Origin: an uncultured Chlorobiaceae bacterium | Lineage (GTDB): Bacteria; Bacteroidota; Chlorobiia; Chlorobiales; Chlorobiaceae | Reading direction: 5' to 3' | Assembly: GCA_903869365.1 (NCBI GenBank) | Contig: CAIPYV010000022.1 | Location: 1-64,000, forward strand | Length of the DNA stretch: 64,000 nucleotides | Shown here: positions 101-39,712 of the stretch, piece by piece | How the letters are laid out: every line of letters begins with the position of its first letter | Position numbering within the stretch: the stretch's first letter is position 1 | Position numbers and translations under genes: made by a program | The notes under the pieces: generated by a model | Told to the model about the DNA's origin: nothing | The model's input: only the letters and a program-made list of their open reading frames with translations | Database searches by the model: none

Positions 101-439
101 TTACAGTTTTGAAGCAATCAAAGCTATACCCGCAATGATGAACAGCGAGCCAGAAAGGTGCCAGACAGAAACTGTTTCATGAAGAAAAAATATACCAATC
201 AATGTGGTGCCGACGACGAGAGCTCCAGCTGCTATCGGAAATGCAAACGATAAAGGGAAGAGTCTGAGAATTCCCATCCACATCAAGGCGCCTGTACCGT
301 AGAGAGCCAAGCCAATGATAAAAGTAAGAGTTTTCCACCCTTCTGCAGCTTTCATAAAATATAAGCCAGAACAACTTGTGACGACATAGATCACAAACAG
401 AATGACGGAAAAAAAAGGGTTAGTCAAGTTTATCTTCAC
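101..439 (-). CDS. SMR/DMT-family small membrane protein (ArnE/EmrE-like)
   Basis: A 112-residue protein made almost entirely of four hydrophobic helices, the size and layout of the small multidrug resistance family. Helix 1 covers about residues 9-28, and the last (about 94-110) follows an HETVSVWHLSG segment typical of EamA/SMR proteins. Its start overlaps the end of the upstream polyprenyl-phosphate glycosyltransferase gene by 20 bases, so the two are translationally linked. In ArnC-ArnE/F and GtrB-GtrA pairs a GT2 of that kind loads a sugar on undecaprenyl phosphate and a small four-helix protein flips it. I therefore infer a lipid-linked sugar flippase rather than a drug pump. The fold is confident; the substrate is not visible. 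Confidence 0.75.
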   Translation of the reverse strand: MKINLTNPFFSVILFVIYVVTSCSGLYFMKAAEGWKTLTFIIGLALYGTGALMWMGILRLFPLSFAFPIAAGALVVGTTLIGIFFLHETVSVWHLSGSLFIIAGIALIASKL

Positions 440-1397
440 AAATCCACCTCGGACGATTTTTTACCGTTGTATAAATTTGACCAATATACTCACTGACGAC
501 ACCGAGACAGATAAGTTGTATACCACCAATAAAATAGATCGGGGCAATGGTTGAGGCCCATCCAGGAACGGTGTCACCAAAAAACAACACCTTCCATAGT
601 GCGTAGAGCAACATGAACATACTGCCAAAAAAAATCAAAAAACCGATGAGCGTTACAATCCGTAAAGGGACAATGCTGAACGACGTAATGCCGTGCAAGG
701 CAAGACGAATCATTTTGCTTACAGTATATTTTGACTGACCGATTTTTCTCTCTCTGACATCAAAATTTACTGTACTTTTCCTGTATCCCAGTAAAAGACA
801 GGTTGCCCGTAAAAAATTATTTGGCTCAGGGAAAAGGGAGAGTGCCTCAAGTGCCCGTTTACTGAGCAGGCGGTAATCGGCATGATCAGGAATAATGTTA
901 ACTCCCATGGTTTTCATGAGCATGTAAAAGCCTGATGCGGTCTGTTTTTTCAGCCATCCATCGGTTTTTCGATCGTTTCTGACACCGAGAACGATATCTG
1001 AACCTTTCCGAAATTCACAAAGAAACTTTTTAATTGCTGAAGGATCCTGCTGCAGGTCGGCATCAAGAGAGATAGCAGCATCACACTCATTGGTCACTGC
1101 ATTCAGGCCAGCCAGAAGTGCAGCCTGATGACCGAAATTCCGGGAAAGTTTTAATCCTTTAATTGCATGACTATCGCGGTGAAGACGAACAATTATGGGC
1201 CAGGTTTTATCGGTGCTTCCATCGTCAACAAAGAGGATAAAAGAGTTTTTTTTTAAAACTCCCTCATGGGTCATCTCTGTGATCAATGAGGTAAGTTCCG
1301 ATGCGGTAAGTTCAATTGATTCGTTTTCATTGAAACATGGGAGAACGATAGCCAGTCGAATTGGCAGGTTTATCTCTTCTTTATTGAGACTATTCAT
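420..1397 (-). CDS. GT2 polyprenyl-phosphate glycosyltransferase (GtrB/ArnC/DPM1-like)
   Basis: About 325 residues. The N-terminal GT-A domain shows the nucleotide-sugar motifs VDDGSTD and DADLQQDP and the SRNFGHQAALLAGL segment of bactoprenol glycosyltransferases. Two C-terminal transmembrane helices follow, and the protein ends in the YIGQIY...RP motif of the GtrB/DPM1 class. It likely moves a sugar from a nucleotide donor onto undecaprenyl phosphate at the inner face of the membrane. A longer open frame exists upstream, but I chose the Met at 1397: the product then begins just before the GT2 fold, and ATG overlaps the stop of the giant glycosyltransferase gene by eight bases, indicating translational coupling. 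The downstream SMR-like gene is the probable flippase partner. The sugar is unknown. Confidence 0.85.
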   Translation of the reverse strand: MNSLNKEEINLPIRLAIVLPCFNENESIELTASELTSLITEMTHEGVLKKNSFILFVDDGSTDKTWPIIVRLHRDSHAIKGLKLSRNFGHQAALLAGLNAVTNECDAAISLDADLQQDPSAIKKFLCEFRKGSDIVLGVRNDRKTDGWLKKQTASGFYMLMKTMGVNIIPDHADYRLLSKRALEALSLFPEPNNFLRATCLLLGYRKSTVNFDVRERKIGQSKYTVSKMIRLALHGITSFSIVPLRIVTLIGFLIFFGSMFMLLYALWKVLFFGDTVPGWASTIAPIYFIGGIQLICLGVVSEYIGQIYTTVKNRPRWICEDKLD

Positions 1398-4300
1398 TGA
1401 ATGGAAACTTCCAGTGAACTTTAGCAAAAAAATACCGAACAGTAAACTCTGTTGTCGACACAAAACGCCCTGCCCAACGATCATGCATGGTTATGTGTGC
1501 ATAGTTCTTCAGCCACGGTTTAGGCACTTTTCCAAACTGCTTCTGGAACATATCATTAATTTCTCTGTGTACCTTCACCTTCGAGCCGAGTGTTTTGTTG
1601 TCGGCATAGAGTCTCGAGCCTGCCAGTTTATGCTCAAGATAGGCAAATTTAACTCCGGCTCTGGATAGTCTCAGCCAGTATTCGTAATCCATACAGTAAT
1701 GCAGCGACTCATCAAGCAAGCCGTGTTGTTCAACCAGCTTTCTCCTGAAAAAGACCGCTGGCTGGCAGATAAAGCAGGTTTCATTGAACCGTTCACTGTT
1801 CCATGGTTCAGTGGGGTAGGACTCAAATGGACGGTCATGAACATCGATGTGGTCAGCCTGTCCGTAAACAAGATCAATTTCAGGGTGTTCTGTAAAATAG
1901 GCAACGACACGGGCTATGGCATCAGGGTAATAGATATCATCGGAATTGAGCCAGCCGATAATGTCTCCTTCTGTCGTGCGTATTCCTTTATTAATTGCAT
2001 CACTCTGCCCTTTGTCCTTCTCCGAAAACCACTTTACCGGCGGACTGAACTTCTGGAGAACGTCTATCGTGTTATCGGTGCTGCCTCCATCAAAGACCAC
2101 ATGCTCTATGGCGGGCCAATGTTGATTTGCTACACTCATCAGGGTACGGCCGATGAACTGCCCTTGATTAAAGGAGGGGGTAACAATGCTGACGGTAAGA
2201 GAAGATGCTTCAGGTATGCAAGGTTTATTATTCTTTTGCCAGACATCCCATACGTTTTCTTGAACCTCACCCTTTTTGTCCGCGGTCATAGCATCTTCAA
2301 AAAGCTCCCAATACTCTCTGGCCATCCTTTCCTGATCTGAGAATTCAGCTGCCCGTTGGAGACCAGCCTGTATAAGCTGCGTGCGGAGTTGATCCTTTCC
2401 AGCCAAAAACAGCATAGCCCAGGCAATCTGCTCAGGACTGGTCGGGTCAAACAGAAGTGCCGCATTTGCTGCTATTTCCGGAAGCGACCGGGTATTGCTG
2501 CAGGCAACTGGAACTCCAGCTTCCATTGCTTCAATGACTGGTAAACCGAATCCTTCATAGAGGGAAGGAAAAATCATGCCGGCAGAGTTCGAAAGAAGAA
2601 GTGCAAGCTCATCGTCTGGCAGATATCCTGGAAAGATAACCCGACGTTCAAGCCCCATATTGCGAGTTTTCTTTACCAATACCTCTTGCCGCTCTCCGGG
2701 TGCTCCAGTACAGACAAGCTTGATTTCTGCATCAAGACCTTCGTTGCAGGCCATACCAAATGCCGACAAAAGAGTTTCGTGGTTTTTATGCTTCCAGAAA
2801 TTGGCAGTGTAGAGCAGGTACTTTTGCTTCTCAAGACCAAGGCGATGCAATAACTTATTAACTGGGAAAGTTTTGGATTGAATACGCTGCGCCATACGCA
2901 GGTAAATGGTGCGGATGATGGAGGGGTCAATATTGCCGTGATCAATGGCCGAGTTTCTTGAATATTCTGAAATTGCCGTAATCGCCACAGCCCGTCGACA
3001 GGCATCCATGAAAACCCGGTCACGGTGAATAACTTCATCAGGGGTAAAAAACTCAGGGTAGGTTTTGTACTGCAGATCGTAAATCGTACAGACTGCCGGA
3101 ATTCCAGGTTCAGCATTATGCAGTGAGGTGAACGGGCAAAAAAGCAGGTCTACACCCATATCATGGAGCAAGCTGCCAGATGCCGGCCGAAAGATTTTCA
3201 GTCGCTTCAATGCACTCCTTTTCCAGCCCCATAGCGTGCGCTCCGACCATGATGAGAGGCGATCAAGCGGTTTTGCCGAGGCATTTCTCATTGGCTCTTC
3301 AGCAAGCACCATCACTCGCTTCATATTCGGGCGATCAAGAAAGGATAATTCTTTGTGAGAACTTTCTCGAGTAAGTAAAATAAACTGGGTATCGGGCTTC
3401 ATTCTGGCGAGCATGCGCAGCAGTTCGAGCACAAATACCTTTGCACCACCGTTCTCCCCTCCGGACAGAACAGGGGTAAGATCAACAGCGATATGCTTTG
3501 GTGAAACAGGCACTTGTGGAAAATCTGCCTGAATAAGCGGCATAGCGCAGCAACTCTTTTCCCATTGATAGAGCCAGTTGTTATTCTGACTGTCTGTCAG
3601 CAGGTTCATGAGCTGGGCGGAACTCTCTTTCCATGTCAACCACGGCATTCCTTCCGAATGGGTAACCGTACCTTTTCTGATGTCAGCAATCCATTTAATC
3701 AATACAGAGGCAAGCTTCAGACGAGATTTTCCGTTGAAATAGGACGCATGTTCACCGGCAACTTCACGGAAGACCGGAAGATCGCGTGCAAGTATGGGAC
3801 GACCCTGCTGAGCCGCTTCGATAAGTGGCAGGCCAAAACCCTCACCTTCTGACGCCATTATGACACCATCAGCAATGGTATAGAGCTTCTGAAGAGCCTC
3901 ATCACTGATATTCTCGTACCAGAAGAGATGCTGGTTCAGCTGTTTATGCTCCCAAATGTCTTTGGCCAATTTTTCAACCATCCACCCCTTTTTTCCCGCA
4001 ATGACCAAGTTAACCTCCACGCCGGTCATCCAGAGCAGTTCAAATGCTTTCAGCACTTGCAGATGCCCCTTGCGCGGTTCAACGGTGCCAACCATGACAA
4101 TGGTTGGTGCCGAAGCAAGTTTCTGTATATCGGTGTTGAAACCTTCTGGAAAACCCTCAGTCGGAATGCTTTTTTCAATGTCGGCACCTAAATGGAACCA
4201 CCCGATACTGAACTTTCGGCAGCGTAGGGGCTGAACACTATCAAACCAAGCCTTTACGTCATCGGCTACGGAACGCGAAATGCATAAAGCCCCGTCGCAC

Positions 4301-6660
4301 TGCGCAACAATATCCATCCATTCGGAGTGATGCTTGTCTACAGTCGGCGGGAAAAAATTCGGGAAGCGGATTGGCAGCAAGTCATAGACTACAAAATAAA
4401 CCAGCCCGCCGTCTCGTCGAAATTGTTCAAAACATTTACGGCCATGTCGCACATTATGGCAAAGGTCGAGGCCAAGAAAAATATCTCCAGCGTGCATCTC
4501 AACGGGAGTGTCTTTGAGCAGAGAGCAGGGCTTTTGATCAATACCGAGAAGGTTTAAGGTAAACTGTCGCGCATAGCAGTAATAAACCCCACGTTCACCC
4601 TGCTCCATAAAGACAGGTTCGATGCGGAAACCATGCGGCGGCGCTTCAAGCAGTTCTTTGAGAATACTTCTTACTACTCTCTGAATGCCGGTTTTCAGAT
4701 CTTCCACAACGAGTGCGGAAATATCGATCAGCAGTTGTTTCTGTCTGCATTGTTCAGGAAAGGTTTCTGCAACAGCCTCGGCAATGGCAAAAAGGTCTTT
4801 TTCGTCATCAGGAATGTCAAGATTGTGAGCAAGTTCGTGCACAATGGAATGGCGCATGCTTTCAGGGCTGCAAGAGAAGCGTTCGATTGCTGATGCATAG
4901 AGGTCAGCAATCCGTGACGGAGTTCGTTGACTGAGCACATAGGCTCTGCCATTCTCCCCTAATTGCTTTCGAAGTGAAACATTGGAGTACAGCATCTCAA
5001 GTGCACCTTTCAACTCCTCGATTCTGACCTTGTCAGGCAGCATCAAGACGCAGGTCTCAGGCAACTCTCTCAAGCTGCCATTGGCATTCACAACAGTAGC
5101 AAGGCCATAGTTCAAGCTGTCCAAAGCCGAAGCGGAACTTTCGCCACGCGACATTGTGCGCAGCTGGATACCGATGTCAGCTGAGGCAAGGTAAAGGCGA
5201 TACTTTTCCATGGGTACCCATCCTGTCATCTGAATGCGTTTCCCAACGTTGCTTTGTTCAATGATCGCCTGCATGTTGCTGCAGTAGTCGTTTTGAGGTA
5301 CCTCACCAACAAACATGAGAACACAATGCTCATTGGCGGCAAGACTCGATTCGAGCCAAGCCTTAAGCAGAAGGTCGCTCAGCTTGTGTATTCCCGGCAT
5401 ACCGAAACTGCATACGACAAAGTGATCTTTGTCAATATTGAGTGTATGCCGAGCTTCAGTCCGATCAAGACTATAAGCTGGAGAACGTAAAAGAGGAATG
5501 ACTGCACAACAGTTACTATCGCTTCCTCCGTACCATTCAGCACACAATGCTCTCGAGTATTCGGAATGGAGAATTATCCCCGTTGCACGCTCTAAAATGT
5601 TTAAATTGCAGGGGTACGCTGCCGTTATATCACCGGGTTTCGTTTCAGGAGCAAAAAGGCGGCGAAGAGCAGAATAACCATGTGAACGGTAGAGCTCCGC
5701 CGTAAAGATCTCGTCGGCAAGGCTCAAGTGGCTGCGATATTCAAGGATGTCGGAAAGGAAAAAATCGTGGAGGACTACAACCCCGGGAACCTCATTGAGT
5801 AAATTGAACATGTGCAGGTGAAACGGGGAGTTCCCGATATGGTAGAGGACACGGTCATAGCTTGCAGCATGCTTCATGAACCAGTCCACTGTACGGATGG
5901 GGCAGTTTTCTTTAACCCAGTCGGACGATATCTCATGATGGTTAACGACCACATCAATCTCATAATGGCGTACAAGCTCAGGTAAAAGCTCCGCGCTGTA
6001 GTCGCTGATACCCGATCGTTCTGGAGGGAGGGGTGAAATATAGGCAAGTCTGGGGCGTCGTGCGAGCTTTGGCGAAACTGCTGAAAGCGTATGCCACTTT
6101 TCGAATGCACGGAGAGCCCGCTGAGACTGGAGATCAAGAGGATCGTCATCTTGTTGTGCAATGGCCACAATGTGCTCGTCATCAATGCCAAACTGATCTA
6201 TGAATGTGCTGCGTGATTGCCCGGAAGAAGTCAAAAAAAATATGTTATCCGCTTCGTTCAGCCCCGAAAGGTCTGCTGAAGAGGTATCAGGCATCAGGAT
6301 ACAGTATTTCAGGCTGGCTGAACAGTCAGCAAGAGGTGACATTTGGAAGGGTTCCATGACGAGCACCATATCAGGGTACAAGCTTGACAGAAAACTCTTT
6401 TCCAGCATATCAGCAACCTTCGGTAACCATAGAGGATGGGTCAGGGATGTTGGTTTTTCTGGTGAAAACCACGGGCGAATGTTCTCCTGCGGCAAAATTT
6501 CATCAAAAGCGCCACGTATCTGTTCAACCGTTATTGCTGATAACCCATCAAGCGCAATAATGACCTCGTGTTCGTCTCTGTTGCGGCACAACTCCTGAAT
6601 GAATTCAAGGCAACCGAGGTGCCCGACCCAGGCATTCTGCAAAGCGACAACAATCCTCAT
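1390..6660 (-). CDS. Giant multidomain glycosyltransferase (GT4-GT4-GT4-GT2)
   Basis: A 1756-residue protein with four consecutive catalytic-type domains. An N-terminal region (about 1-200) resembles a poor GT-B half. GT4 domain 1 spans about 203-595 and has a degenerate donor-site motif near residue 507. GT4 domain 2 spans about 641-1025, with EGEGFGLPLIEA near 938. GT4 domain 3 spans about 1056-1455, with LYEGFGLPVIEA near 1367. A GT2 GT-A domain fills about 1488-1750, with DGGSTDN near 1524 and the DxD-like NSDD near 1572. Domains 2 and 3 look catalytically competent. No signal peptide or membrane helix is evident, so it probably works in the cytoplasm on a lipid-linked or protein acceptor, adding several sugars in turn. 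It lies between a methyltransferase gene and a polyprenyl-phosphate GT2 on the same strand. Acceptor and sugars are unknown. Confidence 0.9.
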   Translation of the reverse strand: MRIVVALQNAWVGHLGCLEFIQELCRNRDEHEVIIALDGLSAITVEQIRGAFDEILPQENIRPWFSPEKPTSLTHPLWLPKVADMLEKSFLSSLYPDMVLVMEPFQMSPLADCSASLKYCILMPDTSSADLSGLNEADNIFFLTSSGQSRSTFIDQFGIDDEHIVAIAQQDDDPLDLQSQRALRAFEKWHTLSAVSPKLARRPRLAYISPLPPERSGISDYSAELLPELVRHYEIDVVVNHHEISSDWVKENCPIRTVDWFMKHAASYDRVLYHIGNSPFHLHMFNLLNEVPGVVVLHDFFLSDILEYRSHLSLADEIFTAELYRSHGYSALRRLFAPETKPGDITAAYPCNLNILERATGIILHSEYSRALCAEWYGGSDSNCCAVIPLLRSPAYSLDRTEARHTLNIDKDHFVVCSFGMPGIHKLSDLLLKAWLESSLAANEHCVLMFVGEVPQNDYCSNMQAIIEQSNVGKRIQMTGWVPMEKYRLYLASADIGIQLRTMSRGESSASALDSLNYGLATVVNANGSLRELPETCVLMLPDKVRIEELKGALEMLYSNVSLRKQLGENGRAYVLSQRTPSRIADLYASAIERFSCSPESMRHSIVHELAHNLDIPDDEKDLFAIAEAVAETFPEQCRQKQLLIDISALVVEDLKTGIQRVVRSILKELLEAPPHGFRIEPVFMEQGERGVYYCYARQFTLNLLGIDQKPCSLLKDTPVEMHAGDIFLGLDLCHNVRHGRKCFEQFRRDGGLVYFVVYDLLPIRFPNFFPPTVDKHHSEWMDIVAQCDGALCISRSVADDVKAWFDSVQPLRCRKFSIGWFHLGADIEKSIPTEGFPEGFNTDIQKLASAPTIVMVGTVEPRKGHLQVLKAFELLWMTGVEVNLVIAGKKGWMVEKLAKDIWEHKQLNQHLFWYENISDEALQKLYTIADGVIMASEGEGFGLPLIEAAQQGRPILARDLPVFREVAGEHASYFNGKSRLKLASVLIKWIADIRKGTVTHSEGMPWLTWKESSAQLMNLLTDSQNNNWLYQWEKSCCAMPLIQADFPQVPVSPKHIAVDLTPVLSGGENGGAKVFVLELLRMLARMKPDTQFILLTRESSHKELSFLDRPNMKRVMVLAEEPMRNASAKPLDRLSSWSERTLWGWKRSALKRLKIFRPASGSLLHDMGVDLLFCPFTSLHNAEPGIPAVCTIYDLQYKTYPEFFTPDEVIHRDRVFMDACRRAVAITAISEYSRNSAIDHGNIDPSIIRTIYLRMAQRIQSKTFPVNKLLHRLGLEKQKYLLYTANFWKHKNHETLLSAFGMACNEGLDAEIKLVCTGAPGERQEVLVKKTRNMGLERRVIFPGYLPDDELALLLSNSAGMIFPSLYEGFGLPVIEAMEAGVPVACSNTRSLPEIAANAALLFDPTSPEQIAWAMLFLAGKDQLRTQLIQAGLQRAAEFSDQERMAREYWELFEDAMTADKKGEVQENVWDVWQKNNKPCIPEASSLTVSIVTPSFNQGQFIGRTLMSVANQHWPAIEHVVFDGGSTDNTIDVLQKFSPPVKWFSEKDKGQSDAINKGIRTTEGDIIGWLNSDDIYYPDAIARVVAYFTEHPEIDLVYGQADHIDVHDRPFESYPTEPWNSERFNETCFICQPAVFFRRKLVEQHGLLDESLHYCMDYEYWLRLSRAGVKFAYLEHKLAGSRLYADNKTLGSKVKVHREINDMFQKQFGKVPKPWLKNYAHITMHDRWAGRFVSTTEFTVRYFFAKVHWKFPFNE

Positions 6661-6799: not shown

Positions 6800-7735
6800 C
6801 TATGATGTTTTGTTTTTCGTGATTACGCGAGATGCAAGCAGTTGAAGGTAGGTCCGGTTTACCATTTCAGTGTATTCGTTTAAAGGGATTGGATGCACCT
6901 TGTCATCAGCGGTTTTGTCGATGGTATTCAGTGACGGTTCCGGCAACTTAGCAGCAGCAGGAGGCAATAGATATGAATCATTCAAACGGTTTATGGCAGA
7001 TACTGCCTCAAGCATTGCGAGTGAGGGGGCCGGTGGCTTGAATGCTATCAGAGCGTAATCGGGTGCCTGAAGTAACCGGGAAGAGATTATGTCTGCCAGC
7101 CGGTTATAGAGCGCAGCTTCCGGTGCTTCTCCAGCCATCATGCTCAATGGCTCTCCTACCGTATTGCGATTTACCCGTGCGATCAAGGGCGAAGCAAACC
7201 CAGTCTGGATGGCAAGAAATTGTAAAAGATGAGGTGGTACGGGGCGGAGATGGGTCGGGTCAATAAAAAAATTGCAGCTTCCGACCGTTACATTTTCGGG
7301 GTTGGGTGTTTCAAGGATGAAAATCCCGCCAGGGGCCAGCATGTCGAACACGGCTTCAAAAAAAGAGGTATGTCTTTCAGGTGGTATATGTTCAATGAGA
7401 TGAAAGCCTGTGATGAGGCTGTAGCAGATTTCATGCTCGCGATCAACAAAACTGAACAGATCAGCTTCTTCAACGGTCAAACCGTTTGTTCTGCAGTGCT
7501 CAACAAACTTTGGATTGTAATCAATACCGAGAGCCGGTATGCGGTTTTCGTTCAAGAGTTCAAGCCACTCCCCACGTCCGCATCCGAGGTCAAGGGCATA
7601 AGCACTGCTCTCAATAGGCAGAAGATTTGCCAACGGAAGGTAAACAGAGAGTCGCTGCTTGATTTCATTGAGTGGGCCTCTAAAAAATGACTCAAATGCT
7701 TCGTAATTAAACGGCGAATATAAAGTGTTCATCAT
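6800..7735 (-). CDS. Class I SAM-dependent methyltransferase
   Basis: A 311-residue protein with the Rossmann-type S-adenosylmethionine motif LDLGCGRGEW near residue 50, an acidic ribose-binding position in the following strand (ALGIDYNP), and the post-motif FHLIEHIPPE typical of Methyltransf_23-like enzymes. It precedes the giant glycosyltransferase gene by 139 bases on the same strand, so a role in methylating a sugar or capping a glycan chain is likely; chain-terminating methyltransferases in O-antigen clusters have this setting. It starts with two Met codons in a row (7735 or 7732). The C-terminal 90 residues are proline- and alanine-rich and not part of the catalytic core. The substrate is inferred only from context. 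Confidence 0.85.
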   Translation of the reverse strand: MMNTLYSPFNYEAFESFFRGPLNEIKQRLSVYLPLANLLPIESSAYALDLGCGRGEWLELLNENRIPALGIDYNPKFVEHCRTNGLTVEEADLFSFVDREHEICYSLITGFHLIEHIPPERHTSFFEAVFDMLAPGGIFILETPNPENVTVGSCNFFIDPTHLRPVPPHLLQFLAIQTGFASPLIARVNRNTVGEPLSMMAGEAPEAALYNRLADIISSRLLQAPDYALIAFKPPAPSLAMLEAVSAINRLNDSYLLPPAAAKLPEPSLNTIDKTADDKVHPIPLNEYTEMVNRTYLQLLASRVITKNKTS

Positions 7736-8083: not shown

Positions 8084-11000
8084 ATGGCTGATTACACTAC
8101 CCAAATTGAGCAACTGTATGTTGCCTATTTTGATCGACCCGCCGATGTTTATGGCTTAGCCTTCTGGAACAACAGGCTGAATACCGGTGGCAGCATTTCC
8201 GAAATTAGCAATCAGTTTTCAACGTCAGCTGAATATCTTGCAACCTTTGCAGGTCTGGATCTTTACCAGACAGTAACAAGAGTCTACCAGAACCTCTTCA
8301 ATCGTGCTCCTGATACCGCAGGTCTGGTATACTGGGTAACTGCTCTCACCAACCATAGTGTTACTATTGCCAATGTTGTTGAGGTCATCACCAATGCGGC
8401 ACTGGCTAATCCTGCTTCAGAGGTTGATCACGTTTCCATTGTCAGTAAAGTAGCAGCGGCAACCGCATTTACGCACGCTTTGGTTACCCCTGAGCAGATT
8501 GCAGCGTATTCCGGATCCGGTCCGGCTTTGGTAGCGAAAGAGTGGCTGGCTCCAATTCATGATGCAGCAACGTTAGCATACGCCTTGGATCCTGTTCATC
8601 TCAGCGCAGCAATTGCTTACATTGAAGCAACACCATCGTCTACCACACCTCTTACTACAGGTCAGGATAATCTCTATGGTACTGCAGGAAATGATGTCTT
8701 CACTTCCACTCAGGCCACCTTGCAGCTTGGTGATTCAGTTCATGGCGGTGCAGGTCAGGATAAGCTTACAGTCGATATCTCAGGTGCTGGTATCGCTCTG
8801 AACGGATTTGCTACAGACAGTGTAGAGACTATCCAAGTTAAATCGCTTTCAACAAGTGCATCAACTGTCGACTTTTCTGATGTTGTGGGTTTAACCCAGA
8901 TTGTTTCCAATGAGACCGACGGTGCTCCTTTGACCTTCCAGGATATTCAGTCAGTCAATGGTGTAGCCATCAAGATTATTGATACTCTTGAGACGCACAA
9001 CTTCACCTATGATACACATGCATACACTTCAGGTGTTGATGCAGTTGATTTGACTTTACAGGAGATCCGTAATGCGGAAATTCATTTCGCTACTACTCAT
9101 GGTACATTAGGCGACTCACTGGTTGATCAGGTGAACATTCATTCAGTGAATGTTATTAATAAGGTTGCAGATCTCAAGGTTGGCGGCAACTTGAATGTTA
9201 TCAACATCGACGGTAATGCTGATCTGAGAATTGTTGCTGCGCTGGATCCAAATCTCACAACGGTTGATGCTCATGGACTGAATGCCAATCTCAGGCTTCT
9301 TTTGTCAGATGAAGCGCGTGATATTACAGTTACTGGAGCGCAACTTGATAACTATCTTGATTTTGGTGCTGAAAGCCATAAGAAAACGGTTATCACTTGG
9401 GGCGGAGATGACACCATTTTAGCATTGAATGGTTTAAATAACATCAACGCAGGGGATGGTGATAACACAGTTTATTCCGGTGCTGCCAACGATACGATTA
9501 CCACAGGAGCTGGTGATGATTTCATATCAGATCTTGGTGGGAATAATACGATTTCTTCTGGTGGCGGTAATGATGTCGTAGATCTTTATCATCCAAAAAC
9601 CGATCTTGGCAATGACTCTATTGTTCTCGGTTCCGGTGACGACAGGCTTATCATAGATGCACACGATCTTGAGGTTTACGATACCATTATAGGAGGTACC
9701 GGTATTGATACCATTGAACTTCATAATTTCGGTTCAAGCGATGCTCTTGGTCATGTACTTGCTGCCGAGACTCAGAGGACATCTGGTATTGAAGTATTCG
9801 ATTTACGCGACACGGAAATTACTCTCGCATTGACTGATCACCTGGTTGAAACAGCTGATGGCAACTCTCTTACCGTACGGACTATTGATTCAGCTGAAGA
9901 TTACGTTGTTGGGCAGACCATTGATATCAGAGGTATAACTACGCCACAATTTCATGTTGGCCTTCAAGGTGGCGTTGTGAGAGATACCGTTATTGCTAAC
10001 GAGTATACTGTAAATAGTTCGAGTTCATTAGCTTTCGGGGATGGACCGGCCCAAGATACTCTTGTTATTTATGGTGATGCAAATATCAGCGCAACAGACA
10101 CGATCAATATCACCGGCCTGGAGCGTATTGAGCTTAAAGCTGACACCACCGAGCCATCTACATGGAGCATTGATCTTACCACAGGCTTGCTTGAGCAGAC
10201 GACTGGCACAGCACCACTTTATATCGTTGTAAGTCCGAATACACCTCAGGGCAGTATCCTTTACTTGAATACGGTTGGCTTGAATTCGGCTATTGACGTC
10301 TATGTAGAACGGAATTCCAACGTCAAGGTCGTTGTCAATGGCACACCGATTGTTGTAAGTGGAATTGTTTCCAACGCTACGTATAACAATGCTAATGCGG
10401 CTGGAGAGTTGTTTGTTCAGACAGAGCTTCATTTTACAACGAATGCAGACAGCCTTGTTGGTTCAAGTTTCAATGATACCTTCTATGCTGACAGCACAGC
10501 TCAAATCGGACCTGCTGATTATGCTAATGGTGATGGTGGTACAGCAGATGAGCTTGTTCTTGGTGCAGGACTTTATAATGGTGATACGATCAGACATCAG
10601 TTTGATGATGCCAAGATTAAAAACATTGAGGTACTTACCATCAGTGACAATCCAGGTTATGCTGTCTGGTTCTCTGATGCAGATTCTTATGATTTCAACA
10701 CCTTTAACCTGACAGCAGGCGATGATGTTGTTACTCATGCACAAAGTGGACATACCTTTAATACAGGAGCAGGGGACGATCTCGTTACTTTGGAACTTGG
10801 CGCTCTTGGTGTTACGGTCAATGGTGGTAGCGGTTATGATGAGGTTCATTTCACTGACGGTGCGGGTTCTATTCCAGGATCATCATCACTCTTTATCTCT
10901 GAAGTTGAGTATGTGCACGGCAGTAATGAGAATAATACTGTAACTATTCTTGGCACTAATACCGTTGGAGTTCATCTTGATCTCTTTGCAGGTAACGATG

Positions 11001-11818
11001 TTGTTCAAGGTTCAAGTCATGCTGATAATCTTACAGTTGACGGTGGGACTGGGGTAGACGTTGTCTACGGTAATGGCGGGGATGATACACTTTTCGTTCA
11101 GCATGTCGAATTAGTTTATGGTGACAGAGCTGATTCAGGCGATCATTCTAATATAAAGCCTGCTGACTTTGTCGGTGGAAATGACACTATTACCACAACG
11201 CATGATGTTCTTGGTGATACACCTGATACGGTTATTGGTGGTGCGGGAAATGACACGATTACATTGCTGAACTCCGCAAAAGACACTGTTGTATTTGGTT
11301 ATGAAGCAGAACACACAGGTAGTGTACCAGTTGCAGTGTCGAGTGGTAACGATACCATCTATCATTTTGCTGCTGGTGCCATTAATCCAGGGCCAACAGA
11401 AGATGTTCTTGATTTCAGTGGCTTAATTGCTCACTCTTCTAAAGGATTCTTTGCTACTGATGTAGTCAGAGATAATTTGCATTTTGGTATTGATCTGGTA
11501 CATGATGGTAACTATAACATAGCTGTAGTCTGGAATGCAAACGCTACAGAAATCGTTGACAATGCCGGTACAACATTTACAACATTCTGGGCTCCTGGGC
11601 ACATTGCGATTGCCAACAACGGCGAAGCAGTTATTGCCTTTACTGCTGATGCAGAGGGAGACAATGTTGAAAATGTAACACTTGCTTATGTTTGCGATAC
11701 CGATGCTGGTGCAGGCCAGACATGGGAAGTAACCATTATCGGTACGGTTCACTTCGACCAGTTGACTGGACTGAACTCTTCTGGAACGCTTAATGCCGAG
11801 AACTTCCACGTTGCATAA
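8084..11818 (+). CDS. DUF4214 / RTX-like surface protein, probable type I secretion substrate
   Basis: A 1244-residue acidic protein with no N-terminal signal peptide. Two DUF4214 units occupy about residues 4-55 and 58-110, each with the YFDRPAD.GL.FW or LFNRAPDTAGL.YW signature. From about residue 193 on there are degenerate calcium-binding nonapeptide (GGxGxDxux) repeats, densest near 438-530 and 965-1066, for example TTGAGDDFI and IGGAGNDTI, mixed with long beta-rich stretches. This is the architecture of RTX adhesins and S-layer-like proteins exported by PrtD/HlyD/TolC machines. All three components are encoded 3-9 kb downstream on the same strand. The last residues are a short hydrophobic tail, consistent with an uncleaved C-terminal secretion signal. 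A terminator follows, so it is transcribed apart from the exporter genes. Adhesin versus S-layer cannot be decided here. Confidence 0.85.
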   Translation: MADYTTQIEQLYVAYFDRPADVYGLAFWNNRLNTGGSISEISNQFSTSAEYLATFAGLDLYQTVTRVYQNLFNRAPDTAGLVYWVTALTNHSVTIANVVEVITNAALANPASEVDHVSIVSKVAAATAFTHALVTPEQIAAYSGSGPALVAKEWLAPIHDAATLAYALDPVHLSAAIAYIEATPSSTTPLTTGQDNLYGTAGNDVFTSTQATLQLGDSVHGGAGQDKLTVDISGAGIALNGFATDSVETIQVKSLSTSASTVDFSDVVGLTQIVSNETDGAPLTFQDIQSVNGVAIKIIDTLETHNFTYDTHAYTSGVDAVDLTLQEIRNAEIHFATTHGTLGDSLVDQVNIHSVNVINKVADLKVGGNLNVINIDGNADLRIVAALDPNLTTVDAHGLNANLRLLLSDEARDITVTGAQLDNYLDFGAESHKKTVITWGGDDTILALNGLNNINAGDGDNTVYSGAANDTITTGAGDDFISDLGGNNTISSGGGNDVVDLYHPKTDLGNDSIVLGSGDDRLIIDAHDLEVYDTIIGGTGIDTIELHNFGSSDALGHVLAAETQRTSGIEVFDLRDTEITLALTDHLVETADGNSLTVRTIDSAEDYVVGQTIDIRGITTPQFHVGLQGGVVRDTVIANEYTVNSSSSLAFGDGPAQDTLVIYGDANISATDTINITGLERIELKADTTEPSTWSIDLTTGLLEQTTGTAPLYIVVSPNTPQGSILYLNTVGLNSAIDVYVERNSNVKVVVNGTPIVVSGIVSNATYNNANAAGELFVQTELHFTTNADSLVGSSFNDTFYADSTAQIGPADYANGDGGTADELVLGAGLYNGDTIRHQFDDAKIKNIEVLTISDNPGYAVWFSDADSYDFNTFNLTAGDDVVTHAQSGHTFNTGAGDDLVTLELGALGVTVNGGSGYDEVHFTDGAGSIPGSSSLFISEVEYVHGSNENNTVTILGTNTVGVHLDLFAGNDVVQGSSHADNLTVDGGTGVDVVYGNGGDDTLFVQHVELVYGDRADSGDHSNIKPADFVGGNDTITTTHDVLGDTPDTVIGGAGNDTITLLNSAKDTVVFGYEAEHTGSVPVAVSSGNDTIYHFAAGAINPGPTEDVLDFSGLIAHSSKGFFATDVVRDNLHFGIDLVHDGNYNIAVVWNANATEIVDNAGTTFTTFWAPGHIAIANNGEAVIAFTADAEGDNVENVTLAYVCDTDAGAGQTWEVTIIGTVHFDQLTGLNSSGTLNAENFHVA

Positions 11819-11953: not shown

Positions 11954-13213
11954 GTGAACATTCTTTTTATCCATCAGAACTTTCCAGCTCAATTCAAGTC
12001 CCTTGCCCCCGCATTAGCAGCTCTCGGGCATGACGTCCGTGTTTTCGTCCTGAAAAAATCTCTTTCACCTGAACTCAAGGGGATTACTCAGATTGTGTAT
12101 GAAGTTAAAAGGCGCAGTACGCCCGATGTGCATCCATGGCTCATCAGTTTTGAATCGCAGATCATTCGTGGTGAAGCAGTTTTTCTTGCGGCTAAAAAAC
12201 TGAAAGCGGAGGGATATAGGCCAGACGCAATTATAACCCATCCGGGATGGGGCGAAAGTATGTTTGTGAAGGATGTCTGGCCTGCAGTTAAACTGGGCAT
12301 ATACTGTGAGTTTTATTATCAGGCTCAAGGTGCTGATCTCGACTTTGATCCGGAGTTTAGTGAAAACGATGAAGCCGATGTGTGCCGGATGCGCATGAAA
12401 AACCTGAACAATATGCTGCATTTTCCCGTTGCCGATGCAGGCATAGCTCCAACCTACTGGCAGGCACTCACGTTTCCCCGATCATTTCATAAAAAAATAT
12501 CCGTCATTCATGACGGAATTGATACCCGTAAAATTACTCCCTATGCAGCTGCAAACCTGCAGATAAAGACAGCAGCCGAGATATTGATTCTGAAAAAATC
12601 CGATGAAATCATCACCTTTGTCAACAGAAACCTTGAACCATACCGAGGTTTTCACATTTTCATGAGAGCATTGCCGAATCTTCTGAAAAGAAGACCAAAT
12701 GCCAGAGTTTTGATCGTTGGAGGAAGTGGGGTGAGTTACGGTCCAAAACCGAAAGAGGGTGGAAGCTGGAGGGAGGTTTTAACAGAGGAAGTGCGAGGGA
12801 AGATCAGTGATGCTGACTGGTCGAGAGTCCATTTTATGGGCAATATTGCCTATAACCATTTTATTCCACTGCTGCAGGTCTCAACTGTCCACCTCTATTT
12901 CACCTATCCCTTTGTCCTGAGCTGGAGCCTGCTTGAGGCGATGAGCGCTGGGTGCGCCATTATTGCCAGTAATACAAAACCAGTACAGGAAGTAATCAAG
13001 CATGATGTTACAGGACGGTTAGTTGATTTTTTTGATGTACCAGGGTTAGTCAACGAGGTGTGCACCCTGCTTGATGATCCTGCATCGCGTGCCCGATTAG
13101 GGAGTGAAGCGCGGGCGTATGCAGTAGCAAACTATGATTTACAAACCATCTGTCTTCCTCGTCAAATAGCCTGGATCAACAAACTCTGCGCACAGCATAA
13201 CCCAGTACCATAG
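11954..13213 (+). CDS. GT4-family glycosyltransferase (PF12000-type N-terminus)
   Basis: A 419-residue GT-B glycosyltransferase. It begins with the Rossmann motif ILFIHQNFPAQF. The middle of the N-terminal half has HPGWGESMFVKDVWP and CEFYYQ, typical of the Glyco_trans_4_3 family, and the C-terminal half has the donor-binding region ending in LEAMSAGCAIIAS. GTG at 11954 is the only start that keeps the first beta strand; no clear ribosome-binding site precedes it. It is the first gene after the surface-protein terminator and runs in the same direction as the exporter genes, so glycosylation of the secreted protein or of a surface glycan is a reasonable inference. Sugar and acceptor are unknown. 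Confidence 0.88.
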   Translation: MNILFIHQNFPAQFKSLAPALAALGHDVRVFVLKKSLSPELKGITQIVYEVKRRSTPDVHPWLISFESQIIRGEAVFLAAKKLKAEGYRPDAIITHPGWGESMFVKDVWPAVKLGIYCEFYYQAQGADLDFDPEFSENDEADVCRMRMKNLNNMLHFPVADAGIAPTYWQALTFPRSFHKKISVIHDGIDTRKITPYAAANLQIKTAAEILILKKSDEIITFVNRNLEPYRGFHIFMRALPNLLKRRPNARVLIVGGSGVSYGPKPKEGGSWREVLTEEVRGKISDADWSRVHFMGNIAYNHFIPLLQVSTVHLYFTYPFVLSWSLLEAMSAGCAIIASNTKPVQEVIKHDVTGRLVDFFDVPGLVNEVCTLLDDPASRARLGSEARAYAVANYDLQTICLPRQIAWINKLCAQHNPVP

Positions 13214-13998: not shown

Positions 13999-14013
13999 GT
14001 CTCTGCAAGGAGA

Positions 14014-14984: not shown

Positions 14985-16709
14985 TTGCTTGTGAAAGGAA
15001 ATAAAGTCAAATCACCCTTACGCGATGCTCTTGGAGCATTGTCCCCTTCTCTTAAGCGGGCCTTTTTTTTTAGTTTATTTGTCAATGTTCTGGTGTTGGC
15101 ACCAAGTGCTTATATGCTGGAGGTCTATGATCGGGTTGTCAACAGCCGCAGTCATAAGACGCTGCTTATGCTTACGCTTCTTGTTGTTGGAGCCTATGCT
15201 CTGCTTGAGGCATTGGAGTGGGTTCGTCGTCAAGTGATGCATGATGCGGGGATGGAACTTGACAAGGAGCTGGGGACGCGTGTGTTCAGCGCTGTTTTTT
15301 CAGCCCGGCTTTTAAATCTTCCCGTAGTAGGCGCGCAGGCCTTGCGTGACCTTAAAGTTATCCGTGAATTTCTTCCTTCCCAGGCTCTTCTGGCTTTTGT
15401 CGATGCTCCACTGGCTCTGTTGGTTCTTATCCTGATTTTCTCGATGAATGCTACTCTTGGGTGGTTTGCTGTGGCTGGTGCCGTTGTTCAGTTCGCGATC
15501 GGTGTGGTCAATGAGCGCCGTATTCGTGAACCGCTTCTTGCTGCCAATCGGAGTGCAGTGGGTGCTCACAGTTATGCTGAAGGTGTGATTCGCAATGCTC
15601 AGGTTATTGAATCGATGGGAATGATCGGCGACATCCATAAGCGCTGGATGGGTCGTCAGCAGGATTTTCTTATTCAGCAGGCTGTTGCGTCCGATCATGC
15701 AGGTACTAATTCGGCGTTATCAAAATTGGTGCAGAGTCTTTTAAGTTCTCTTCTCCTCGGTATGGGTTGCTGGCTGACGCTGAAAGGTGAACTGCATGGC
15801 TCGGGTATGATTGTGGCGTCGATTCTCGGTGGAAGGGTTCTTGCACCGCTTGTACAGATTATCGGAAGCTGGCGTCAGGTGGAGAGCACCATGGAGGCTT
15901 ATAAACGTCTGGACGGTTTGCTCAAGGAGTTTGCTGTCACTGAGAAGGGAATGTCGTTGCCGGCACCGAAGGGTTTTCTTTCTGTTGAGGGCGTTTTGGC
16001 CGGCGCGCCGAGAAGCTCTGTACCGATTCTCAGAGGGATCAGTTTCAAAGTTGCTCCAGGAGGGTCGTTAGCGATTGTCGGTCCTTCTGCTTCAGGCAAA
16101 ACGACTCTTGCCCGTTTGCTGGTAGGGATATGGCCGGCGATGCAGGGTAAGGTGCGGCTTGATGGGAATGATATTTATCAGTGGGACAAGGAGGAGCTTG
16201 GGCCCTATATCGGTTATTTGCCTCAAAATGTTGAGCTGTTTGAGGGTACCATTGCTGAAAATATTGCACGCTTTGGGGAGCCTGATGCATTAAAAGTCAA
16301 AGAGGCATGTCGTATGGTCGGTCTTGATGCCTTTATTGAGCAGTTGCCCAAGGCTTACGAAACCCAGATTGGTGATGATGGCTCATTTCTTTCGGGTGGG
16401 GAACGTCAGCGTGTCGCATTAGCGCGAGCAGTGTATGGAATGCCGAAGTTTGTTGTGCTTGATGAGCCGAACGCAAGCCTTGATGAAGCGGGTGATGCAG
16501 CTTTGCTCAATGCCGTGAAGCTTTTAAGGACACATGGTACGACGGTTATCGTTATTACGCATCGTTTGAATATTTTGGGGGCAATAGAGCACATGCTTGT
16601 TTTGGTTGATGGTCAGGTTCAGCGTTTCGGCACCTGTCAGGAGGTTCTGGCTGCTCTGCAGTCACCACCGCCCACTTCGCAGCCATCCAACCAGCAGTCA
16701 CCGAGCTAA
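14985..16709 (+). CDS. Type I secretion ABC permease/ATPase (PrtD family), first copy
   Basis: A 574-residue fused transmembrane-ATPase exporter. The membrane domain starts around residue 22 (LFVNVLVLAPSAYMLEVYDRVV, a PrtD-family signature). The nucleotide-binding domain has Walker A GPSASGKTT near 365, the signature LSGGERQR near 468, Walker B VVLDEPN near 488 and the switch histidine in ITHR. It would energise export of the RTX-like protein through HlyD- and TolC-type partners encoded next. The start is either TTG 14985 or GTG 14991; neither has a clear ribosome-binding site. A second, clearly different PrtD gene follows 24 bases later, an uncommon arrangement compatible with a heterodimeric exporter. 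Confidence 0.92.
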   Translation: MLVKGNKVKSPLRDALGALSPSLKRAFFFSLFVNVLVLAPSAYMLEVYDRVVNSRSHKTLLMLTLLVVGAYALLEALEWVRRQVMHDAGMELDKELGTRVFSAVFSARLLNLPVVGAQALRDLKVIREFLPSQALLAFVDAPLALLVLILIFSMNATLGWFAVAGAVVQFAIGVVNERRIREPLLAANRSAVGAHSYAEGVIRNAQVIESMGMIGDIHKRWMGRQQDFLIQQAVASDHAGTNSALSKLVQSLLSSLLLGMGCWLTLKGELHGSGMIVASILGGRVLAPLVQIIGSWRQVESTMEAYKRLDGLLKEFAVTEKGMSLPAPKGFLSVEGVLAGAPRSSVPILRGISFKVAPGGSLAIVGPSASGKTTLARLLVGIWPAMQGKVRLDGNDIYQWDKEELGPYIGYLPQNVELFEGTIAENIARFGEPDALKVKEACRMVGLDAFIEQLPKAYETQIGDDGSFLSGGERQRVALARAVYGMPKFVVLDEPNASLDEAGDAALLNAVKLLRTHGTTVIVITHRLNILGAIEHMLVLVDGQVQRFGTCQEVLAALQSPPPTSQPSNQQSPS

Positions 16710-16733
16710 CTCTAATCCGGAAGCAGATACTTC

Positions 16734-18443
16734 ATGAAACCTGATTTTTTTGACCGCAGTGCATTGACTCGCAAGCTCTGGACCTTTCGCAAGGAGTTTT
16801 TATGGGTGGGCATTTTCAGTATGATTGCCAATGTGCTTATGCTTACGCCGACACTTTATATGCTTCAGGTCTACGGGCGAGTTATGAAGAGTGGCAGTGA
16901 GCTGACTCTTCTGATGGTTACCTTATTCCTTGTGTTTTTTTATGGCGTGATGGCCTTTGCGGAATGGTTACGGTCGCGTCTTCTTGTGCGGATAGGGGTA
17001 AGGCTTGATGAAGAGCTTAACTCACAGGTGTTCAACTCAAGCTTTGAGGCCTATCTGAACCGTACCAAGCACAATGTCAATGAAGCGTTTTCGGATTTGA
17101 CCAATATTCGTCAGTTCCTGACAGCTAACGGTGTCATAGCGTTTTTTGATACTCCTTGGACCCCGATTTATATAGCGGTTATTTTTTTACTGAATCCATT
17201 TCTTGGCTGGCTTTCAATTTTATTTGCAGTACTTCAGGTTGGTTTGACCATGCAGAGCCATCGGATTACAACAAGAGAGATTGAAAGTGCAACAGATTCA
17301 GGCAATGACAGCCACCGCTTTGTCCAGAGCAAGCTTCGCAATATTGAGCCGGTGCACGCTATGGGTATGGTGGGTAATTTTCGTGATCGCTGGTTCAGGC
17401 TGCATGATGTTTCGCTCGCAAAAGCCGAATCATCAATGGAGAGACAGCATCGTCAACAAGCTGTTGCCAAGTTTGTCCGCTATACGATGCAGTCACTCAC
17501 CCTTGGAGCGGGAGCCCTGATGGTTATTGAGGGGAAGATGTCTGCCGGTTCGATGATTGCTGCCAATGTTCTGATGTCGAAGGCGCTTCAGCCTCTTGAT
17601 CTTGTTGTGGCTACATGGAAACCTTTTGTTCAGGCCCGTACGGCTTTCCGTCGTCTGGAGAAGCTCCTTGAAGAATTTCCAGAGCGTCAGCCTGGTGCAA
17701 AGCATCAGGATCCTTTGGGAGAGATAAGGCTTGAGGCTCTTTCCGCGACTGTTGAGGGTCGTGAACAACCTATTTTACAAGATATCAATGTCGTGTTTCC
17801 TGCAGGCAGGGTTGTTGTCGTTGTCGGTCCTTCGGGTTCCGGCAAATCAACACTTGCGCGTTGTCTTGTGGGTATCTGGCCTGAACGTGATGGAAAGGTT
17901 CTTATTGATGGTGAGCCGATAGAAAGCTGGGACAGGATAGAACTGGGTCCGCATATTGGTTATCTTCCTCAGGATATTGAGCTTTTTGATGGCTCGATTG
18001 CTGAAAATATCGCTCGTTTTGGCGAACTTGATTCAGAGAAAGTGATTGAGGCTGCAAAACGTACCGGTATTCATGACATGGTTTTACGTTTTCCGCATGG
18101 TTATGATACGCAAATAGGTGAGGCTGGCGGGATTCTTTCGGGAGGTCAGCGGCAGCGTCTTGGCCTGGCCCGGGCGATGTACGGTAATCCGGAAATTGTG
18201 GTGCTCGATGAACCTAATGCCAATCTTGACGATGCTGGAGAACGCTCCCTGCTTGAGGCTGTGGCCGATTTAAGAAGGTCCAACAAAACCGTGATTCTCA
18301 TTACTCATCGTCCGAGTATTCTTGGTGCGGCTGATCTGCTGGTCGTGATGCGGGATGGCAGAATTCTTCATTGCGGACCTCGAAATGATGTATTGGCGGC
18401 TCTTAATCCAAAAAATACAACGCCTAAGCTGTCTAAAGCCTGA
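16734..18443 (+). CDS. Type I secretion ABC permease/ATPase (PrtD family), second copy
   Basis: A 569-residue PrtD-type exporter with the same layout as its upstream neighbour: a membrane domain beginning with MIANVLMLTPTLYMLQVYGRVM, then an ATPase domain with Walker A GPSGSGKST near 364, signature LSGGQRQR near 467, Walker B VVLDEPN and switch ITHR. All catalytic motifs are intact in both copies, so neither is an obvious pseudo-half. They differ across the membrane domain and are not a recent duplication. The gene sits 24 bases after the first exporter and 33 bases before the HlyD-type gene, so all are likely one operon. Either the two form a heterodimer or each serves its own substrate. Confidence 0.92.
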   Translation: MKPDFFDRSALTRKLWTFRKEFLWVGIFSMIANVLMLTPTLYMLQVYGRVMKSGSELTLLMVTLFLVFFYGVMAFAEWLRSRLLVRIGVRLDEELNSQVFNSSFEAYLNRTKHNVNEAFSDLTNIRQFLTANGVIAFFDTPWTPIYIAVIFLLNPFLGWLSILFAVLQVGLTMQSHRITTREIESATDSGNDSHRFVQSKLRNIEPVHAMGMVGNFRDRWFRLHDVSLAKAESSMERQHRQQAVAKFVRYTMQSLTLGAGALMVIEGKMSAGSMIAANVLMSKALQPLDLVVATWKPFVQARTAFRRLEKLLEEFPERQPGAKHQDPLGEIRLEALSATVEGREQPILQDINVVFPAGRVVVVVGPSGSGKSTLARCLVGIWPERDGKVLIDGEPIESWDRIELGPHIGYLPQDIELFDGSIAENIARFGELDSEKVIEAAKRTGIHDMVLRFPHGYDTQIGEAGGILSGGQRQRLGLARAMYGNPEIVVLDEPNANLDDAGERSLLEAVADLRRSNKTVILITHRPSILGAADLLVVMRDGRILHCGPRNDVLAALNPKNTTPKLSKA

Positions 18444-18476
18444 TCCTATTTTTGACAAATGTTTTAAAGTATAACC

Positions 18477-19649
18477 ATGAGTATTCGTGATGTTTTGGCA
18501 ATAAAAAAATCTGTATCGGTAGAACAGACTCAAGGTGAGAAGTATCACAGTCCTAAAAAAACCATACGGTTAGGATTTTGGATATTGCTTGTCGGATTTG
18601 GCGGGTTTCTCCTCTGGGCTGCATTTGCGCCACTTGATGAAGGTGTTCCCTGTCAGGGCGTTGTCAGTATAGCCACCAAGCGTAAGGTGGTGGAAAATCA
18701 GCGCGGGGGGAAAGTTGAAAAGGTAAATGTCCGGGAGGGTCAGATGGTCAAGGAGGGGGATATACTGATGGTCCTTGACAACCAGACGGCCAAAGCTCGT
18801 TATGATGAGGTTCATCAGCACTACCTCGGGATGAGGGCGGCAGCGGATCGCCTGATCACAGAGATGAATGGAGGCAGTTCGATTACGTTTCACAAAGACC
18901 TGCTGTCTGATCCTGAGCGGGGAATTGCTGAACAGAATATGCGCAACCAACGCCAGCTTTTTGCATCTCGCCGGCAGACGTTAAAACTTATGCATGATCA
19001 GCTTGCAAGTATTACAACGTTAGCAGCCGAGGGTTATGCTCCCCTGAGTCAGCAGCGTGATCTTGAATTGAAGATTTTGGAGTTCAAGTCAAGTACGGCG
19101 TCTCAGTTTTCTCAGGTGCAGCTGGAAGTGGAGGCTGATGCTGAAAAGACCAGAGCCCTTGCTCAGGAGCTTGCTGAAACTGAGGTTCGCTCACCGGCAA
19201 CAGGGCAGGTTGTGGGGTTGCTGGTGCAGTCTGTAGGAGCAGTGATCCAGCCGGCCCAGAAGATTATGGATATTGTGCCTCTTCATGAGGGTCTTCTGAT
19301 TGATGCAAGGGTCAATCCTCAACTTATCGACAGCATTCGTAAGGGTCTACCGGTTGATGTCAACTTTTTTTCATTTTCTCACTCCCCACAGCTTGTTGTG
19401 AAGGGTGAGGTTGAGTCGCTTTCGAAAGATATTGTGACTGATCCCGGAGTTAATCCCGCGGCTCCCGCGGCTTCCTATTATCTTGCACGAATTTTTGTGA
19501 CACCTGAAGGGATGAAGGTTCTGGGTAAGCGTCAGATGCAGCCGGGTATGCCGGTGCAGGTTGTCGTCAAGACTGGTGAACGCTCGCTGTTGACCTATCT
19601 TCTTGATCCGTTGGTTAAGCGTATTAACGTATCAATGAAAGAAGAGTAA
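18477..19649 (+). CDS. HlyD/PrtE-family periplasmic adaptor of type I secretion
   Basis: A 390-residue membrane fusion protein. A cytosolic N-terminus of about 30 residues leads to one transmembrane helix (LGFWILLVGFGGFLLWAAFAP), followed by a lipoyl-like half (VENQRGGKVEKVNVREGQMV), a coiled-coil hairpin with several Gln-rich heptads, the second lipoyl half (VRSPATGQVVGL) and a beta-barrel domain. It would anchor in the inner membrane, contact the PrtD ATPases and bridge to the TolC-type channel encoded next. Size and domain order match PrtE/HlyD adaptors. It is 33 bases after the second PrtD gene and 75 bases before the outer-membrane factor gene, completing the apparatus. Confidence 0.93.
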   Translation: MSIRDVLAIKKSVSVEQTQGEKYHSPKKTIRLGFWILLVGFGGFLLWAAFAPLDEGVPCQGVVSIATKRKVVENQRGGKVEKVNVREGQMVKEGDILMVLDNQTAKARYDEVHQHYLGMRAAADRLITEMNGGSSITFHKDLLSDPERGIAEQNMRNQRQLFASRRQTLKLMHDQLASITTLAAEGYAPLSQQRDLELKILEFKSSTASQFSQVQLEVEADAEKTRALAQELAETEVRSPATGQVVGLLVQSVGAVIQPAQKIMDIVPLHEGLLIDARVNPQLIDSIRKGLPVDVNFFSFSHSPQLVVKGEVESLSKDIVTDPGVNPAAPAASYYLARIFVTPEGMKVLGKRQMQPGMPVQVVVKTGERSLLTYLLDPLVKRINVSMKEE

Positions 19650-19724
19650 GAAAGAGTGGCTCAGTATTCTCTTGAAATTATGGGATTGCTATGATGGTCA
19701 ACTAAATGTTATGAGTCAGAGGAT

Positions 19725-35611: not shown

Positions 35612-35674
35612 TAAGAAAAAAAAGTTTCGATCCTGAAACGCATATCGTTCTTGAAAATAAGCAAATGAAGGAAA

Positions 35675-37590: not shown

Positions 37591-37616
37591 GACACAGAAT
37601 AGGCAGGGGTTGTTGG

Positions 37617-39524: not shown

Positions 39525-39614
39525 AAGCTCCCTGATCGTGTTTTGTTTATCGTAACTCTTAATATAGTGTATAAATCAGAATAATCAGTTTTAGTTAACA
39601 GTGCCGAGAAAGAG

Positions 39615-39712
39615 AGTGCTGAGTGCTGAGAAGGAAAGTACTGAGTTGGGGCTCATCGTTCCCTGATGTGTCATGAAGCGGCAAGCCACTCAGCACTTGG
39701 CACTCAGGACTT
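39615..39712. repeat. GAGTGCTGA-type repeat with an inverted copy at the GT9 stop codon
   Basis: AGTGCTGAGTG (39615-39625) is repeated in inverted form as CACTCAGCACT (39687-39697), 61 bases away, with further partial units (TACTGAGTT, GCACTCAGGAC). The inverted copy holds TGC-TGA on the minus strand, the last Cys codon and stop of the GT9 gene. Confidence 0.75.

Follow-up and report, generated by a model that had tools for sequence, protein, structure and literature searches.

A multi-module glycosyltransferase of Chlorobiaceae with an unusual fusion history and a putative link to DUF4214 surface proteins

We analyzed a 64,000-nucleotide stretch of DNA (hereafter the window) from an uncultured, Chlorobium-like member of Chlorobiaceae known as a metagenome-assembled genome (NCBI GenBank assembly GCA_903869365.1, contig CAIPYV010000022.1, positions 1 to 64,000), which carries at 1390-6660 on the reverse strand a gene for a chain of several glycosyltransferase (GT) modules, referred to below as the multi-GT. 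The results show that the multi-GT is a real, well-conserved multi-module glycosyltransferase of the WbdA/WbbB/WsaE-like assembler kind, and that what is new is the unusual fusion history in an otherwise known kind of surface-sugar assembly enzyme. We regard it as probable that this protein is a soluble cytoplasmic glycan assembler, fused from separate GTs, with a product that most likely serves a surface layer of RTX proteins with DUF4214 domains, this putative link being the least certain part of the reading.

The multi-GT gene is present in one copy in its own genome and encodes 1756 amino acids (aa) from an ATG start, with no internal stop codon and no membrane segment predicted by a transmembrane (TM) scan. 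A Pfam search with the whole chain revealed PF00534 in three stretches and PF00535 in one, in agreement with an earlier sequence-only reading, which described three GT4 domains and one GT2 domain. We divided the chain into modules N, A, B, C and D, in this order from the N-terminus (Table 1). A, B and C are GT4 enzymes of the GT-B fold, i.e. two Rossmann halves with a PF00534 donor domain, and D is a GT2 enzyme, with the GT-A fold, a DxD-type motif and a catalytic Asp.

Modules B and C possess canonical EX7E motifs (EGFGLPLIE at 940-948 and EGFGLPVIE at 1369-1377), i.e. the two clean donor motifs noted previously, and these are essentially invariant: E940 and E948 are retained in all 17 homologues (9/9 near, 8/8 far), E1369 in 76/76 (8/8 near, 68/68 far) and E1377 in 75/76. 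Module D exhibits both motifs ascribed to it, DGGSTDN and NSDD, and its four aspartates, D1524 (DGGS), D1574/D1575 (NSDD) and D1658 (MDYEYW), are kept in 74/74 homologues (9/9 near, 65/65 far); the signature residues of C and D are conserved across phyla too. Loss of catalytic residues in three of the four domains across relatives, which the sequence-only reading named as the pattern that would speak against it, was not observed, those of B, C and D being conserved. In module A the expected EX7E motif is indeed replaced, by SRGESSASALD, but the term "degenerate" applied to it earlier is misleading, because the motif SRGE[ST]SA..LD, with Glu507 and Asp514, is kept in 8/8 near homologues. The same first Glu is missing from WsaF, an active rhamnosyltransferase of the GT4 family with an incomplete EX7E motif (PMC2943079). 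Structure prediction, a check proposed earlier, gave a model of moderate confidence for residues 1-1045 (pLDDT 70) and a good one for residues 1046-1756 (pLDDT 85). The folds match known GTs, the GT4 modules, C in particular, resembling MshA/BshA/HepE and D resembling the WrtF fucosyltransferase and the K4 chondroitin polymerase (K4CP). By sequence and fold together, K4CP (2z86) and WrtF (9omh) are the closest solved relatives of D, at about 20% identity, at which donors are not transferable.

The first 195 residues, for which a Pfam scan gave no match and which the sequence-only reading overlooked, are not a linker. Their homologues in Thiocapsa marina and in two Chlorobi genomes (G009 and G021 in our numbering) run on into a PF00534 GT4 donor domain; thus, module N corresponds to the acceptor-side part of a GT4 whose donor-binding C-terminal half has been lost. 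That half is absent from all six full-length proteins, and in two of them (G050 and G016) module N is even shorter. In the predicted model, beta and alpha elements alternate along N. Comparison with the protein from G053 yielded omega values of 0.30 for N, 0.25 for A and 0.17-0.19 for B, C and D; the value for N is above those of the other modules, yet far under 1, and every module, N included, is under purifying selection.

Comparison of the domain order among relatives, likewise suggested earlier, reveals a series of architectures. Within Chlorobi, NABCD is found in the window, G053 (84% identical) and G033 (68%), NABC in G050 and G038, NABBCD in G016, CD in G013, and a B-partial C-D architecture in G021, while in G001 C and D are two unfused genes. 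In G009 and G021 the first GT4 is complete, and after it come A and B, the latter at least in part. (The G021 gene, L033:2907-5915, displayed two in-frame TAA codons in a first-look search; the open reading frame used here is the 1002-aa open frame covering N, the donor half, A and part of B.) Stand-alone copies of D, 65-68% identical, were also found directly 3' of the TolC gene of a type I secretion system (T1SS) in G033 and G016 (L026:6310-7179 and L030:9411-10274). Outside Chlorobi, a genome scan identified 73 loci, in 50 of which C and D are encoded by separate adjacent genes and in one of which they are fused; a plasmid search with a C-D query returned nothing beyond weak GT2 matches. 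In Paraburkholderia dinghuensis and Nostoc linckia the C-D pairs come after Wzm, Wzt (with a carbohydrate-binding domain) and methyltransferases, and the order MTase-C-D of Nostoc (MTase, methyltransferase) equals the order MTase-[N-A-B-]C-D of the window. In Thiocapsa marina the order is Wzm-Wzt-MTase-multiGT, and the multi-GT opens with a complete N-type GT4. Homologues of the window methyltransferase, with about 40% identity, are located near C-D in several other phyla.

Since the relatives of C-D and of the multi-GT sit in Wzm/Wzt/methyltransferase loci, the parts of the multi-GT appear to derive from ATP-binding cassette (ABC) transporter-dependent polysaccharide assembly, and fusion is most simply seen as a subsequent, lineage-specific step. 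We infer that GTs encoded separately elsewhere were joined, i.e. that the methyltransferase-GT4(C)-GT2(D) set of such clusters would have gained N-terminal GT4s: B, A and an earlier GT4 that is now a half.

Multi-module GTs have functional precedents in WbdA and WbbB (PMC11231755) and in WsaE and WsaF (PMC2943079). In the ABC-transporter-dependent O-antigen systems of WbdA/WbdD and WbbB (E. coli O8/O9a, Klebsiella O3/O5/O12; PMC11231755), several GT modules, one per linkage, share a chain and a methyltransferase or terminator is encoded alongside. The same combination of several GT modules in one chain and an associated terminator candidate is found here, and the Wzm/Wzt loci of the C-D relatives add to the likeness. 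The window protein differs in its GT4+GT4+GT4+GT2 order and its truncated half module, and its setting in the lack of a Wzt_C or Wzm match in the Chlorobi genomes searched and in a short methyltransferase devoid of an evident ruler. The S-layer glycan system of Geobacillus stearothermophilus (PMC2943079) also combines multidomain soluble GTs with a methyltransferase; however, WsaE unites a methyltransferase and two GTs in one chain, whereas here the methyltransferase is a separate gene and the coat-like protein is an RTX protein and T1SS substrate.

On these grounds, A, B, C (GT-B/GT4) and D (GT-A/GT2) would each form one linkage and so extend, sugar by sugar, an acceptor that is bound to a carrier, most likely a polyprenyl, in the cytoplasm. 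The adjoining methyltransferase probably methylates the product, possibly as a chain terminator, which would yield a methylated glycan for export to the cell surface and for possible use by the RTX/DUF4214 layer there; cells of this Chlorobi clade would make the glycan alongside surface proteins of the DUF4214/RTX type, which leave the cell by type I secretion. The link to the RTX layer is the weakest step of the scheme. As for the earlier proposal that the multi-GT builds a defined oligosaccharide without release, its first part is plausible in view of the conserved signatures, the purifying selection and the neighboring methyltransferase and undecaprenyl phosphate (Und-P) GT genes, but keeping the product unreleased is not obligatory, because most of the non-Chlorobi loci encode C and D as two proteins, in neighboring genes.

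Several observations weigh against the proposed assembler. The catalytic activity of each module, above all of A, is predicted from sequence. The methyltransferase is short (311 aa) and, judged by eye from its sequence, has no obvious coiled-coil ruler. The Wzt_C domain was not found in ten Chlorobi genomes, and a search of the same ten for Wzm, lacking a positive control from this genus, gave no Wzm-like match; the route by which the ancestral system exports its product, which is encoded beside the Thiocapsa multi-GT and the C-D relatives of Paraburkholderia and Nostoc, is either missing or unrecognised in these Chlorobi. In G009, the methyltransferase and multi-GT genes come after an msbA-like ABC gene, which we considered as a dedicated flippase and set aside; its homologue in the window (37617-39524, 69% identical) looks like MsbA.

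A second feature overlooked by the sequence-only reading is the linkage to RTX proteins. Each of the six genomes that possess the N-A-B-C core has, in divergent orientation to the multi-GT gene, a gene for an RTX protein with N-terminal DUF4214 repeats, and of 65 congeners these six, and no others, gave a DUF4214 match. The methyltransferase gene is linked to the multi-GT in five of the six full-length loci, and also in G009, and lies between the multi-GT and the RTX gene in five of the six (the exception being G038). What the RTX proteins have in common is mainly their first ~180 residues, conserved in 6/6 loci. RTX repeats occur together with nearby T1SS genes in the window, while the T1SS of G033 is elsewhere on the contig and that of G016 on another contig. 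DUF4214 has been put forward as a surface-anchoring domain (PMC12780176, PMC11970703) and the N-terminal domain of the Caulobacter RTX S-layer protein binds O-antigen (PMC6978808), which makes a link via a glycan anchor attractive. The RsaA system of Caulobacter crescentus (PMC6978808, PMC3034196) likewise comprises an RTX surface protein anchored by its N-terminal domain, a dedicated T1SS and a polysaccharide at the surface, but PDB sequence and profile searches with the DUF4214 N-terminus detected no match to RsaA. To our knowledge, no fused multi-GT exists in that system. Literature searches linking DUF4214 with S-layers and glycosyltransferases, or RTX with glycosylation, found nothing. 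The full proposal, i.e. that the multi-GT glycan is what the DUF4214 domains bind, that DUF4214 is a glycan-dependent anchor, and that both form one surface-display system gained and lost together, is a doubtful one at present.

The strongest competitor is that the multi-GT makes an ordinary lipopolysaccharide (LPS) or capsule glycan with no functional link to RTX proteins, and that the co-occurrence reflects shared ancestry of the genomic region. Shared ancestry does account for much of it: in an infB tree of 28 genomes (G033 and G013 left out), the full-length carriers fall within one 7-genome clade with three changes, and the three independent contrasts give a sign-test p of 0.25, three being too few to reach significance. 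Also in favor of this explanation, G009 has its methyltransferase and multi-GT after the msbA-like gene in a genome with no DUF4214 match, and the window itself contains gmd and fcl genes (GDP-fucose) and an LPS heptosyltransferase-like gene. On the other hand, in the near-sister pairs G053/G005 and G050/G052 both traits differ together, DUF4214 genes are located on several contigs, and the RTX protein adjacent to the 84% identical multi-GT of G053 is largely different from that of the window (47% over ~200 residues), which argues against hitch-hiking of an unchanged block. We rate this explanation as a serious one, albeit less probable than an assembler serving the RTX layer.

Soluble GTs are known to glycosylate serine-rich-repeat adhesins and flagellins stepwise, and the multi-GT could in the same manner glycosylate the RTX/DUF4214 exoprotein in the cytosol, sugar by sugar, before type I secretion. 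The divergent RTX gene at all full-length loci, the T1SS genes close by in the window, the extra GTs within the T1SS region, the lack of a TM segment and the failure to find Wzt_C agree with this possibility, and glycosylated RTX surface proteins, SwmA and oscillin, exist in cyanobacteria (PMC3034196). We nevertheless find it unlikely: the C-D homologues sit in Wzm/Wzt polysaccharide loci, a DUF4214 match is absent from 33 of 38 non-Chlorobi genomes that possess these modules, the neighboring Und-P GT and flippase act at the periplasmic face, where no substrate of type I secretion passes, and the RTX protein, with 17.5% Ser/Thr, is not strikingly rich in these residues. Still less credible is a protein with several dead modules, mainly a scaffold in which B, C or D alone transfers sugar, as might be supposed from an N without donor half and an A without the first Glu of EX7E, since the motif of A is conserved rather than eroding, its omega is low, as are those of B, C and D, and the signatures of the latter three are essentially invariant.

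Table 1. Modules of the multi-GT, as divided here, and neighboring genes in the window
Feature	Position	Strand	Description	Evidence
Module N	6076..6660	-	multi-GT residues 1-195; N-terminal (acceptor-side) half of GT4/GT-B, C-terminal donor half gone	
Module A	4780..6075	-	GT4, residues 196-627	PF00534 E 7e-11; weak PF22772 WsaF_C
Module B	3526..4779	-	GT4, residues 628-1045	PF00534 E 2e-24; R863/K864
Module C	2206..3525	-	GT4, residues 1046-1485	PF00534 E 5e-31; K1292
Module D	1390..2205	-	GT2, residues 1486-1756 and stop	PF00535 E 2e-27
Methyltransferase	6800..7735	-	S-adenosylmethionine-dependent; first operon gene	PF13489 E 1e-14
Und-P-type GT2	420..1397	-	two C-terminal TM helices; Und-P-sugar synthase type (PgfS/ArnC/GtrB-like)	NF047588 223.8 bits, below cut-off; TM scan
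SMR/EmrE-like protein	101..439	-	small 3-TM membrane protein, putative Und-P-sugar flippase	weak SMR/TMEM234 matches
RTX exoprotein	8084..11818	+	two N-terminal DUF4214 repeats; putative S-layer-like substrate/partner	PF13946, PF00353
Single-domain GT4	11954..13213	+	directly 3' of RTX gene	PF12000 E 9e-60; 80% identical in G033
T1SS	14985..21074	+	PrtD ABC 14985-16709, second ABC 16734-18443, HlyD 18477-19649, TolC 19725-21074	TIGR01842, TIGR01843, TIGR01844 over cut-off

The same-strand neighbors of the multi-GT correspond to those described before, i.e. a methyltransferase upstream and an Und-P-type GT2 and a flippase-like gene downstream. The likely start of the Und-P-type GT2, at 1397, overlaps the multi-GT stop by 8 nucleotides, and the SMR-like protein is 84-87% identical in G053 and G033, where a 660-aa membrane protein with 7-8 TM segments comes after these two genes. 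Because the contig begins at window position 1, genes further downstream are cut off, and the failure to find the 660-aa protein in the genome of the window does not demonstrate its absence. Together the three would resemble a periplasmic sugar-modification trio. G050 and G038 carry a different set and G016 none, hence the Und-P GT/flippase pair is accessory, and might supply a side sugar instead of working on the multi-GT product. In G016, the place of the Und-P GT directly 3' of the multi-GT is taken by a toxin-antitoxin-like nucleotidyltransferase/substrate-binding pair (L029:10556-11283), and a serralysin-like metalloprotease with C-terminal DUF4214 repeats is encoded nearby (L029:1734-3311).

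Around the T1SS genes of the window, the two tandem ABC genes (14985-18443) are 41% identical to each other, in an arrangement conserved in G033 and G016, and two open reading frames (235 and 171 aa, 13291-14529) with no Pfam match are kept beside the operon in the same two genomes. A second glycan region (33513-40745) encodes Gmd and GDP-L-fucose synthase (fcl), both over NCBIfam cut-offs, the msbA-like ABC exporter and the heptosyltransferase-like protein, and at 27608-28744 there is a protein of nine Sel1 repeats.

Within a single genus, unfused genes and fusions in which modules were duplicated, lost or cut in half display the steps by which a multi-module glycan assembler was put together, so that the order of domains can be read as evidence of the linkage order. 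Should the link to DUF4214 prove true, a widespread domain of unknown function could be assigned a role, open to testing, in anchoring proteins at the surface through a glycan, and green sulfur bacteria would gain a candidate S-layer system.

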